From the NCBI RefSeq assembly GCF_002813425.1, contig NZ_PHUL01000001.1:3458501-3522500 (forward strand): 64,000 nucleotides of DNA, read 5' to 3'. This DNA is from Cellulophaga sp. RHA19. Lineage in GTDB: Bacteria; Bacteroidota; Bacteroidia; Flavobacteriales; Flavobacteriaceae. A model generated the notes under the pieces. That model saw nothing but the letters and a program-made list of their open reading frames with translations, searched no databases and was not told where the DNA came from. Shown here in pieces: positions 58,132 through 61,878 of this stretch. The number at the start of each line of letters is the position of its first letter. The stretch's first letter is position 1. The position numbers and the translations under genes were made by a program.

Positions 58132-58162
58132 TTTGTTTAAAAAGACAAAAGTACTACATTTG
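58132..58162 (+). promoter_or_regulatory. Strong Bacteroidota-type promoter of the threonine operon
   Basis: TTTG (58132-58135), exactly 19 bases, then TACATTTG (58155-58162): both boxes match the consensus TTTG-n19-TAnnTTTG. Transcription should start near 58169, giving a leader of about 180 bases before the thrA ATG. Confidence 0.75.
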
Positions 58163-58347
58163 ATTTGTTAATAAGCAAAGCTTAAACAAACATTTTGGAC
58201 AACGTAACTACATTTTCTACTACAATTTTTACTTGTGTTATTACTAACACAACAATTACCCCATTGGGGTAATTTGCTATATAATACACGTCCGTTATAC
58301 GTATTGTTTTATCAATACAACTTACAAAAATCTATAATTATTTTACA
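58163..58347 (+). promoter_or_regulatory. Threonine-operon leader with stacked hairpins (candidate attenuator)
   Basis: Between the promoter and thrA lie three potential hairpins: TTGTGTTA/TAACACAA (58233-58240 with 58245-58252, 8 bp, loop TTAC), AATTACCCC/GGGGTAATT (58254-58262 with 58266-58274, 9 bp, loop ATT) and a weaker GTATTG/CAATAC (58301-58306 with 58313-58318). The first two lie inside the Thr-rich reading frame, and ATTAC is repeated so that alternative pairing with GTAAT (58269-58273) is possible. No long T run follows the second stem, so a translational or Rho-linked mechanism is as likely as a classic terminator. Confidence 0.55.
58195..58272 (+). CDS. Candidate threonine leader peptide
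   Basis: 25 codons from TTG (or one codon earlier from ATT) to TAA, starting about 26 bases after the predicted transcription start. The peptide (DNVTTFSTTIFTCVITNT then TITPLG after the start) has nine Thr codons and three Ile codons of 25, far above chance, with a Thr-Thr pair three times. Thr and Ile are the products regulated by the aspartate pathway, exactly as in the enterobacterial thr leader. The lack of an ATG is the main doubt. Confidence 0.55.
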   Translation: MDNVTTFSTTIFTCVITNTTITPLG

Positions 58348-60792
58348 ATGAAAGTATTAAAGTTCGGCGGAACTTCGGTTGCCAATGCCAATAACATAGG
58401 GTTAGTTAAAAATATAGTTAAAAATTCTACTGAAAAGACAGCTGTAGTTGTTTCTGCTTTTGGAGGCGTAACAGATCTATTATTAAAAGCTGCAGAATTA
58501 GCTTCAATACACCAAGAAGACTACAAAAAAGTATTTTTAGAGATTGAAGATAGACACCTTTCTACCATAAAAGAACTAGTGCCTGTTACTAACCAAAGTA
58601 GAGTTTTAAGTAAAGTAAAAAACGAGCTAAACATTTTAGAAACCTTATTAGAAGGTGCATTTTTTATTGGAGAAATAACACCAAAACTATCTGATAAAAT
58701 TGTTAGCTATGGCGAGTTACTATCTTCTTATATAATTAGTGAATATTTTATTTCTCAAGACTTAGATGCTGTATATAAAGATAGTAGAGAGCTTTTAAAA
58801 ACAAATTCAAATTACGGAAAAGCAGCTATTTATAATTTTGATGACACAAATAATTCAATTGAAGATTTTTTTAATAATAATTCTGCTAAAATTACGGTAT
58901 TGGGTGGTTTTATAGCTTCTTCAGTAAAAGGAGACTCTACTACTTTAGGTCGTGGTGGATCAGATTATACAGCTGCAATTATTGCAGCTGCTGTTAACGC
59001 AAATGATTTAGAGATTTGGACAGACGTTAGCGGTATGTATACTGCCAATCCAAAACTTGTAAAACAAGCTAAAGCTATAGTTAATATATCATATAAAGAA
59101 GCAATGGAGCTTTCTCACTTTGGTGCCAAAGTACTGTATCCTCCTACAATACAACCTGTACTCACAAAAGGAATTCCTATTACAATTAAAAACACATTTA
59201 ATCCTGAATCTCAGGGTACTACTATTACAAAAAATCTGGAACAAAATGGTAAAACAGTTCGCGGTATTAGTCATATAGAAAATATAAGCCTTATTTCTTT
59301 AGAAGGTCCAGGTATGGTAGGAATTCCAGGAATATCTAAGCGCTTTTTTGAAGTTTTATCTATAGCACAAATAAGCATTATACTTATTACTCAAGCATCA
59401 TCAGAACACTCTATTTGTGTTGCAATTGATGCCAATGACGTTAATTTAGCAGAAGAAGCTATTAATAATGAATTTGAATATGAAATCTCATTAAAAAAAA
59501 TAAAACCAGTATTAGTAGAAAATGATCTTGCTATTATAGCTTTAGTTGGTGATCATATGAAGAATCACCAAGGGTTAAGCGGTAAAATGTTTAGCACGCT
59601 AGGAAAAAATAATGTAAACATTAGAGTTATAGCTCAGGGATCATCAGAACGTAATATTTCTGCTGTTATAGATAAAAATGACGTTAAAAAAGCCCTAAAC
59701 TCTCTTCACGAAAAGTTTTTTGAAGAAAACACAAAACAATTAAATTTGTTTATTATGGGAGTAGGCAATGTAGGTTCTAAACTATTGCATCAAGTTAAAC
59801 AACAAAAAAAATATCTAAAGGAAAATTTAAAACTAAATATAAGAGTTATTGGTATTTCCAATTCAAGAACTATGTTTTTTGACGAAGAAGGTATCTCTCT
59901 AAAAAATTGGGAAACATTGCTTACTAGTGGAGAAAAAGCAAATAAAGAAGCCTTTTTTGATAAAGTAAATAAACTAAATTACAGAAACAGCATATTTGTA
60001 GATAATACAGCTAGCGCAACAGTATCTAATACTTATGCAGACTATTTAAGCAATAGTATTTCTGTGGTTACATGTAATAAAATTGCCTGTTCATCTGAAT
60101 ATACTAATTATAGTAAATTAAAGTATTTAGCGCAAAAATACAATGCTCCGTTTTTATTTGAAACTAATGTTGGTGCTGGCTTACCAATTATAGATACTCT
60201 AAAACATTTAATTGCTTCAGGAGATAAAATTTTAAAAATACAAGCTGTTTTATCTGGTAGTTTAAATTTTGTATTCAATAATTTTAATGATAAAACTACA
60301 TTTCATGATGTTGTAAAACAAGCACAAGAAGAAGGCTACACAGAACCCGACCCTAAAATTGATTTAAGTGGGATTGATGTTGCTCGTAAAATTTTAATTC
60401 TAGCAAGAGAAAGTGGTTATAAATTAGATATTGAAGAAATTAAAAATGCACCGTTTTTACCTGAAGAAAGTTTAAAAACAACTAATAATGATGACTTTTT
60501 TGCTTCATTGATTAAACATGAAGCATCTTTTCAAGACATGTATAAAGCAGCGGCAGAAAAACACTCAAAATTAAAGTATGTAGCTCAATTTGAAGACGGT
60601 AAAGCTAGTGTTGGACTACAACATATTCCTAAAGGACACGATTTTTATAATTTAGAAGGAAGTGACAATATTGTTTTATTTTTTACTGAAAGATACCCTA
60701 ACCAACCTATGATTATTAAAGGTGCTGGTGCAGGTGCAGATGTTACGGCTTCTGGAATTTTTGCTGATATAATAAGAATAGGAAACTTTTAA
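58348..60792 (+). CDS. thrA: Bifunctional aspartokinase / homoserine dehydrogenase
   Basis: 814 residues, the normal length for ThrA. Aspartokinase domain (about 1-290; MKVLKFGGTSVANA, VVSAFGGVTDLLL, TTLGRGGSDYTAAI), two ACT-type regulatory segments (about 305-450; ISLISLEGPGMVGIPGISKRFF, AIIALVGDHMKNHQGLSGKMFSTLG) and homoserine dehydrogenase (about 460-814; LFIMGVGNVGSKLL, VVTCNKIACS, ETNVGAGLPIIDTL, EGYTEPDPKIDLSGIDVARKI). It makes aspartyl phosphate and reduces the semialdehyde to homoserine. It is 2 bases upstream of thrB and follows the Thr-rich leader. Confidence 0.97.
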   Translation: MKVLKFGGTSVANANNIGLVKNIVKNSTEKTAVVVSAFGGVTDLLLKAAELASIHQEDYKKVFLEIEDRHLSTIKELVPVTNQSRVLSKVKNELNILETLLEGAFFIGEITPKLSDKIVSYGELLSSYIISEYFISQDLDAVYKDSRELLKTNSNYGKAAIYNFDDTNNSIEDFFNNNSAKITVLGGFIASSVKGDSTTLGRGGSDYTAAIIAAAVNANDLEIWTDVSGMYTANPKLVKQAKAIVNISYKEAMELSHFGAKVLYPPTIQPVLTKGIPITIKNTFNPESQGTTITKNLEQNGKTVRGISHIENISLISLEGPGMVGIPGISKRFFEVLSIAQISIILITQASSEHSICVAIDANDVNLAEEAINNEFEYEISLKKIKPVLVENDLAIIALVGDHMKNHQGLSGKMFSTLGKNNVNIRVIAQGSSERNISAVIDKNDVKKALNSLHEKFFEENTKQLNLFIMGVGNVGSKLLHQVKQQKKYLKENLKLNIRVIGISNSRTMFFDEEGISLKNWETLLTSGEKANKEAFFDKVNKLNYRNSIFVDNTASATVSNTYADYLSNSISVVTCNKIACSSEYTNYSKLKYLAQKYNAPFLFETNVGAGLPIIDTLKHLIASGDKILKIQAVLSGSLNFVFNNFNDKTTFHDVVKQAQEEGYTEPDPKIDLSGIDVARKILILARESGYKLDIEEIKNAPFLPEESLKTTNNDDFFASLIKHEASFQDMYKAAAEKHSKLKYVAQFEDGKASVGLQHIPKGHDFYNLEGSDNIVLFFTERYPNQPMIIKGAGAGADVTASGIFADIIRIGNF

Positions 60793-60794
60793 TT

Positions 60795-61721
60795 ATGAAA
60801 AACGAAATCAGAGTATTCTGTCCTGCAACTATTGCTAATATTTCTTGTGGTTTTGACGTTCTAGGAGTTGCACTAGACAATGTTGGCGATGAAATGGTTG
60901 TAAAAAAAACAACTAAAAAAGGCATTACAATAACCAAAATAGAAGGTCAAGATTTACCTTTAGAAACACATAAAAATGTAGCTGGCGTAGCTGGCTTAGC
61001 GTTATTATCTGCTACTAATTACAGTGGTGGTTTTGAAATAGAAATTTATAAAAAAATCAAAGCTGGCAGCGGTATTGGAAGTAGTGCAGCCAGCTCTACT
61101 GGTGCCGTTTGGGCTATGAACAAGTTATTAGGAGAACCTTTTTCTAATTTAGAATTAGTGCAATTTGCTATGAAAGGTGAAGAATTAGCCAGTGGAGTAC
61201 AACATGCAGATAATGTTGCTCCTGCTATATATGGCGGTTTTACTTTAGTCCGAAGCTATAATCCTTTAGATATTATAAAAATAAATACACCTAGAGAATT
61301 ATACGCTACTGTAATTCACCCGCAAATAGAAATTAAAACATCAGACTCAAGAAAAATACTAAAAACAACTATTTATTTAGCAGACGGTATAAAACAATGG
61401 GGAAATGTTGGCGGATTAATAGCTGGTCTTTACACAGAAGATTATGAGCTAATAGGAAGATCTCTAGAAGACCACATAGTAGAACCTATAAGATCTATTC
61501 TTATACCTGCTTTTGACAATGTTAAATCTGCATCGTTAAATGCTGGTGCGTTGGGTTGTGGTATTTCTGGTTCCGGACCTTCAATCTTTGCTTTAAGCCA
61601 AGGAAAAGAAATTGCAGAAAAAGTAGCAAAAGAAATGCAAAATGTATATAATAAAGTAGGTATAGACTATGATATTCACGTTTCTAACATTAATACCATT
61701 GGAGTAAAAAAAATAGCATAG
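60795..61721 (+). CDS. thrB: Homoserine kinase
   Basis: 308 residues. GHMP kinase: N-terminal FCPATIANISCGFDVLGVAL, ATP-binding loop AGSGIGSSAASSTGAVWAMN (about 93-112), SGVQHADNVAPAIYGGF, and the C-terminal LGCGISGSGPSIFALS. It phosphorylates homoserine for threonine synthesis. It is immediately downstream of thrA. Threonine synthase (thrC), usually next, does not follow. Confidence 0.96.
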   Translation: MKNEIRVFCPATIANISCGFDVLGVALDNVGDEMVVKKTTKKGITITKIEGQDLPLETHKNVAGVAGLALLSATNYSGGFEIEIYKKIKAGSGIGSSAASSTGAVWAMNKLLGEPFSNLELVQFAMKGEELASGVQHADNVAPAIYGGFTLVRSYNPLDIIKINTPRELYATVIHPQIEIKTSDSRKILKTTIYLADGIKQWGNVGGLIAGLYTEDYELIGRSLEDHIVEPIRSILIPAFDNVKSASLNAGALGCGISGSGPSIFALSQGKEIAEKVAKEMQNVYNKVGIDYDIHVSNINTIGVKKIA

Positions 61722-61878
61722 CATTTAAATTTTTACAACAACACATTAATTATAATAACAACAACATTCAAGACCTGTTTTATATTGATTTTTAGACATC
61801 TAAAAAAACATATTAAGTTTTGTGGTTTGTTTGGTTGTTAGTATATTACCAGTATAAAGAAATCCAAATACAAACATT

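Follow-up and report, generated by a model that had tools for sequence, protein, structure and literature searches.

Attenuation is a textbook case that rests on intrinsic terminators. In enterobacteria, the threonine leader (thrL; Rfam family Thr_leader) lies before thrA and encodes a short Thr/Ile-rich peptide, with hairpins overlapping the end of the leader. Leader peptides that control Rho are also known (tnaC, mgtL and corL), and the stretch on which Rho loads is said to be C-rich and G-poor. Bacteroidota ribosomes largely manage without Shine-Dalgarno pairing. A 2010 comparative study of attenuation by Lopatovskaya et al. may cover part of the thr-leader finding described here.

In a 2021 transcriptome study of F. 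psychrophilum, 'strong clues' pointed to attenuation by leader peptides upstream of amino-acid operons, and conserved elements are named there for pheA and hisG (PMC9723704); the words 'thrA' and 'threonine' are absent from its main text, and its Table S7 may list thr. The B. thetaiotaomicron map mentions leader-like short ORFs in general (PMC7366714), and the main text of a paper on premature terminators (PMC2965389) contains none of the terms 'Bacteroid-', 'Flavobacter-' and 'threonine'. No description of the thr leader presented here was found in the literature searched, which takes in few subscription papers. Going by the main text of the F. psychrophilum study, clues to leader-peptide attenuation before amino-acid operons have already been reported in that species; what appears unusual here is the near absence of an intrinsic terminator across a whole clade, beside his and ilv attenuators of textbook form in the genus of the window.

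The thr leader and its conservation

The window analysed in this study is a 64,000-nucleotide stretch of the Cellulophaga sp. RHA19 genome (assembly GCF_002813425.1, contig NZ_PHUL01000001.1, positions 3,458,501 to 3,522,500), and Table 1 lists the features of the thr locus in window coordinates. The promoter, the Thr/Ile-rich frame, the two perfect hairpins and the order of thrA and thrB described in a first-pass annotation were all confirmed in the sequence. Read from TTG at 58195 to TAA at 58270-58272, the leader translates as LDNVTTFSTTIFTCVITNTTITPLG and holds 9 Thr and 3 Ile residues in 25 codons, and its last Thr codon, ACC (58258-58260), is part of the 5' arm of H2. Two starts, TTG or ATT, had been offered for this frame; TTG is the better reading and ATT is set aside, because TTG 58195 aligns with an ATG in the sister species. 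From the family names in the annotation, we take thrA to encode a bifunctional aspartokinase-homoserine dehydrogenase, and thrB is presumably homoserine kinase. By comparison with the best 80 of 306 named records, the genome of the window is close to those of Cellulophaga omnivescoria and C. fucicola, with thrA identities of 91% and 87%. No thrC lies behind thrB (window positions 61722-61878), and the sole thrC match above the family cut-off is found elsewhere in the genome, at C1:2145497-2146492.

Table 1. Features of the thr locus in the Cellulophaga sp. RHA19 window
Feature	Position	Strand	Basis or detail
Promoter, Bacteroidota-type, TTTG-19-TACATTTG	58132..58162	+	TTTG at 58132, 19-nt gap, TACATTTG ending at 58162
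Leader ORF, Thr-rich, TTG start, 25 codons and TAA	58195..58272	+	Sequence; start alignment with sister species
P1 5' arm, TGGAC, candidate long-range helix	58196..58200	+	Single-sequence folds
H1 hairpin, TGTGTTA-TTAC-TAACACA, perfect, within leader ORF	58234..58251	+	Seen directly
H2 hairpin, TTACCCC-ATT-GGGGTAA, perfect, overlapping leader stop codon	58256..58272	+	Sequence and comparison
Untranslated spacer rich in C and poor in G, candidate stretch for Rho loading	58273..58347	+	Base composition in relatives
P1 3' arm, GTCCG, within conserved CTATATA..CGTCCG stretch 3' of H2	58290..58294	+	Folds and alignment
H3 hairpin, GTATTG-TTTTAT-CAATAC, in the spacer ahead of thrA, lacking a following T run	58301..58318	+	Seen directly
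thrA, 814 aa, candidate regulated gene	58348..60792	+	ORF and homology searches
thrB	60795..61721	+	ORF; directly after thrA

Regions upstream of thrA were taken from related whole genomes (60 searched, 58 matching; the 30 best loci and 16 further stretches) and from the best 80 of 306 named records. Three duplicates, one region cut by a contig end and nine other loci of the aspartokinase/homoserine dehydrogenase type were dropped, leaving a set of 113 regions from Cellulophaga and its relatives; because these species are related and mostly belong to one family, counts across them are not independent events. H2, searched for as ACCC, 2 to 6 nt, GGG (a pattern that fixes the letters of ACC and leaves their frame free), is present in 105 of the 113. 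In each of these 105, the first ACC of H2 encodes Thr in the leader frame, and the preceding 20 codons are free of stops, while over the same 20 codons the other two frames contain stops in 58 and 72 regions. The leader frame averages 5.25 Thr (26%) and 3.09 Ile per 20 codons, compared to 0.4 and 1.1 Thr (2% and 5.5%) in the other frames, and mononucleotide shuffling of the 75-base leader of the window, repeated 200,000 times, never yielded as many as nine Thr codons. The in-frame start past the promoter is ATG in 93 of the regions, TTG in 7 and GTG in 3, with none in 2; an exact TAnnTTTG lies 45-170 nt 5' of H2 in 92, and the leader stop falls 6, 12 or 15 nt past the start of ACC in 102.

Conservation of the hairpin can be separated from that of the peptide. 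The ends of the leader peptides vary (TPLG, TLWG.., TL, TPFGV) and H2 is kept; therefore, the RNA shape seems to be under a constraint of its own. In an alignment of 56 sequences the inner three C-G pairs of H2 are invariant, and mean column identity outside H2 is 47%. H2 is the sole structure that RNAalifold recovered from these sequences, with zero covariation because its core never varies. Since ACCC..GGGT occurs across the Cellulophaga sp. RHA19 genome at near background frequency (51 occurrences versus 39 of the reversed pattern), H2 alone is not specific. H2 is absent from the nine loci set aside above, a weak control because several of them start inside longer fused frames. The conserved CCC/GGG core and the conserved CTATATA..CGTCCG stretch might suggest a ligand-binding riboswitch or a protein-binding RNA in which the ORF is incidental; such an element is hardly credible here, given a frame that is open in every H2-bearing region, Thr enrichment confined to that frame, and the divergence of the sequence on either side of the hairpin.

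The eight regions lacking H2 are of several kinds. In L029 and L087 (L numbers designate individual upstream regions), promoter-like sequence is retained and the Thr frame is gone, so that the case expected to speak against a Thr leader, a kept promoter and thrA with the frame lost, does exist but is rare. The leader is degenerate in L064 and absent from L035, L037 and L109, and in L030 and L032 thrA stands immediately behind another gene, which we take to be ilvA-like. In addition, one of the H2-bearing regions, L031, has a leader with only 3 Thr, and a second promoter-like stretch lies between that leader and thrA. Across the set, conservation strongly supports the proposal of an attenuator-type thr leader. 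The locus shows what broadly marks an attenuator, namely an ORF rich in cognate codons and predicted to be translated, a site between promoter and cognate operon, and a hairpin on the codons or stop. Judged by these sequence comparisons, the leader is real and well conserved and very likely has a Thr-sensing role, and we infer that thrA and thrB would be regulated by Thr through it.

Intrinsic terminators at the thr, his and ilv leaders

No U-run intrinsic terminator was found between the leader and thrA in the window. Terminators were scored as a hairpin followed by a T run, and the version of the test used for his, which is nearly the same, was then run as a lenient scan over the 260 nt before thrA. 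Among 104 thr regions (the 105 with H2, less L031), a terminator downstream of H2 was scored in two, L033 and L034, both weak. The lenient scan found some site in 20 of the 104, for the most part within the leader or close to the promoter; six of these sites (L025, L074, L078, L106, L111 and L113) use H2 as the stem, followed by a T-rich stretch. Thus, in eight of the 104 regions a weak terminator could be present 3' of the Thr codons and ahead of thrA; the energies of these sites range from -6.9 to -10.7, compared to -13.5 to -24.2 for the his and ilv terminators. The missing T run remarked on in the first-pass annotation is a trait of the clade, with weak exceptions.

Other leaders of the same genus present a different picture, with a terminator in 9 of 9 regions upstream of ilvD and 9 of 9 upstream of hisG. 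In a wider his set of 32 (the 30 best loci of the search and two more), 31 have a terminator and all 32 have a His-rich short ORF. Outside the window in the same genome, hisG (L139, C1 ~2790478) follows the leader MRNKNTHHHHFTPCFQAS, read to its stop, and the hairpin on this stop together with an intrinsic terminator makes it a textbook attenuator; ilvD (L128, C1 ~3091807) follows a leader that is Ile-rich by eye, MKNNIIIIVLVIIISLWG, again read to its stop, and a strong terminator of the intrinsic type. Full his leaders folded at equilibrium made a useless control, as the terminator wins every time, and partial transcripts were used instead; in the predicted folds of these transcripts, antiterminator-type pairing increases upon ribosome stalling in 9 of 9. 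At the thr leaders, the freed GGG arm of H2 pairs in 102 of the 104 regions with partners scattered over approximately 100 nt, and no consistent antiterminator partner for this arm was found across the same regions. A strict terminator/antiterminator switch at the thr leader receives no support from these predictions.

Relatives outside the order were represented by 24 of the 25 best full-length thrA matches among 119 genomes across the class, two of which (L145 and L146) are of the same family. By eye and ORF scan, a Thr-rich leader precedes thrA in approximately 14 of the 24, scan matches in L149 and L161 having been discarded. The terminator test was positive in five: L156, L159 and L166, which belong to one family and where the terminator comes after a Thr leader, L161, which has no accepted leader, and L164, which is marginal. 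L155, L157 and L163 carry a different stop-codon hairpin, of the ACGGGGTAACCCGT type (ACGGGG-stop-CCCGT), in which a Thr codon, ACG, again lies in the 5' arm.

It is possible that the locus is a classical transcription attenuator in which H2, H3 or P1 serves as an intrinsic terminator and Bacteroidota tolerate a poor U run. The terminators of the three thr leaders from one outside family would agree with this, as would the six H2 stems with T-rich stretches, the weak sites further down in L033 and L034, the T runs that follow CGTCCG in Muricauda-type leaders, and the stability of the local hairpins. Compared with dinucleotide shuffles, the best local hairpin is stabler in 89 of 104 relatives for the 75 nt preceding H2 (H1; mean z -1.47) and in 74 of 104 for the stretch after H2 (H3; mean z -1.35). 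Even so, we consider a classical attenuator rather unlikely, in view of the few and feeble sites yielded by the lenient test, the lack of a consistent alternative pairing for the GGG arm, and the coexistence of H1, H2, H3 and P1 in the predicted fold of the window. In the Gelidibacter-type regions L106, L111 and L113, A-T pairs lengthen H2 ahead of the T-rich stretch, so that termination might occur at H2 itself in these three. At the thr leader the sensor half of an attenuator is present, and nearly all regions lack the classical output half or have it in weak form.

Candidate output of the thr leader

The spacer between H2 and thrA differs in composition from the gene behind it, with 7.2% G and 18.1% C (C/G 2.5) compared to 18.9% G and 18.8% C (C/G 0.99) over the first 900 bases of thrA; of 101 relatives, 100 have more C than G in this spacer. 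The same excess is seen over the last 75 nt ahead of thrA in 99 of 104 regions versus 138 of 219 control upstream regions, and the controls lean to C as well (C/G 1.21). Of 11 outside leaders classed as having no strong terminator, eight have more C than G, the exceptions being L145, L164 and L165. A rho gene is present in the genome. A C-rich, G-poor spacer fits Rho-dependent termination and does not prove it, an excess of C over G being a weak mark of Rho sites.

H1 and H3 vary in sequence between species. The recurrence of a hairpin of variable sequence upstream of thrA (H3) would suit a role in which hairpins shield the mRNA from nuclease or expose it, Thr-dependent stalling altering mRNA stability, but we regard this as very improbable. 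The candidate helix P1 joins the first leader codons to the conserved CGTCCG after H2 and is predicted in many single-sequence folds; in the alignment of 56 sequences, 84% of cells are paired across its five inner pairs. When native partners were compared with swapped ones, the native did better in 66 of 112 cases (p=0.011). Duplex z-scores against shuffles gave no signal for P1 (mean z -0.15; n=108 regions, duplicates included). In pair counting on the 56 sequences, the covariation score of P1 and H2 together was matched by 39 of 500 shuffles, and four pairs were changed on both sides, below the shuffled mean of 5.4. P1 is retained as a candidate helix with weak to moderate support. In two of the outside thr leaders, L164 and L165, a strong candidate P1 helix can be seen by eye directly after H2 (AACTATTC/GGATAGTT and TACTATCC/GGATAGTA, respectively), in agreement with high swap-test scores.

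A further possibility is that the leader governs the translation of thrA, by masking of its start site or by coupling, and not its transcription. The leader is compact and structured, and H2 begins a median of 90 nt (69-188) before thrA. The mean unpaired probability of the thrA start is nevertheless the same with no ribosome (0.539), a stalled ribosome (0.535) and a ribosome at the stop (0.536; n=100), with Wilcoxon p values of 0.24 for stalled versus stop and 0.26 for none versus stalled. These predicted folds give no support to structural masking of the thrA start, and ordinary coupling would call for a leader stop nearer to thrA. Translational control appears improbable.

The reading that we prefer, with slightly better than even confidence, is that thrA and thrB are preceded by a Thr-responsive, ribosome-mediated attenuator whose off-output is not a standard intrinsic terminator and is most likely Rho-dependent. 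Its components differ in strength, since Thr sensing by the leader is highly probable, an output other than an intrinsic terminator is probable, and Rho as that output specifically is a tentative choice that falls somewhat short of even. When Thr is ample, the ribosome would reach the stop codon at H2 and depart; H2, and possibly P1 as well, would then form, and the bare C-rich RNA would admit Rho, ending transcription before thrA or early in it. When Thr is scarce, the ribosome would stall at the Thr codons beside or inside H2, hold H2 and P1 open and remain linked to RNA polymerase, so that transcription would continue. More tentatively still, much of the Bacteroidota may have a thr attenuator of this sort, in which a leader that senses charged tRNA, with its last Thr codon within the stop-codon hairpin, controls Rho-dependent or other non-intrinsic termination while his and ilv keep textbook terminators.

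Comparison with described leaders

If this reading is true, the existence of a conserved leader with a sensor but no strong terminator would mean that sensor and output are exchangeable. The thr and his leaders would also form a clean pair for testing Rho and transcription-translation coupling in Bacteroidota. In addition, the thr leader is probably a conserved short ORF of the type that gene annotation tends to overlook.

Neither the window nor ten related loci gave a match to any Rfam family at the gathering score. A permissive Rfam scan of the leader region, to E=5, gave five unrelated sub-threshold matches at chance level, and Thr_leader was not among them. The first-pass annotation had suggested an independent origin; there is no Rfam match to the enterobacterial leader, and in so short a leader dissimilarity proves little on this point. 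The enterobacterial leader, thrL, shares with the Cellulophaga leader its position before thrA, a Thr/Ile-rich peptide and hairpins at the leader end. The Cellulophaga leader differs in its Bacteroidota promoter, in the TTG start found in the clade of the window, in the lack of a strong U-run terminator, and in a stop-codon hairpin whose arm includes a Thr codon. Closer at hand, the genus has hisG and ilvD leaders (L139 and L128) that resemble the thr leader in their cognate codons (four His; many Ile) and in a hairpin at or close to the stop, as judged by eye in nine his and several ilv leaders; unlike it, they bear strong intrinsic terminators with T runs, and his also has antiterminator-type pairing. 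A Thr/Ile-rich leader before thrA is likewise common to the clade of the window and to L156, L159 and L166 of one outside family within Bacteroidia, whereas a classical intrinsic terminator follows the leader in those three and no strong one does so in the clade. With tnaC, mgtL and corL, the proposed thr system would share the principle that translation of a leader decides whether Rho acts, but its signal would be charged tRNA-Thr and not free Trp or Mg2+.
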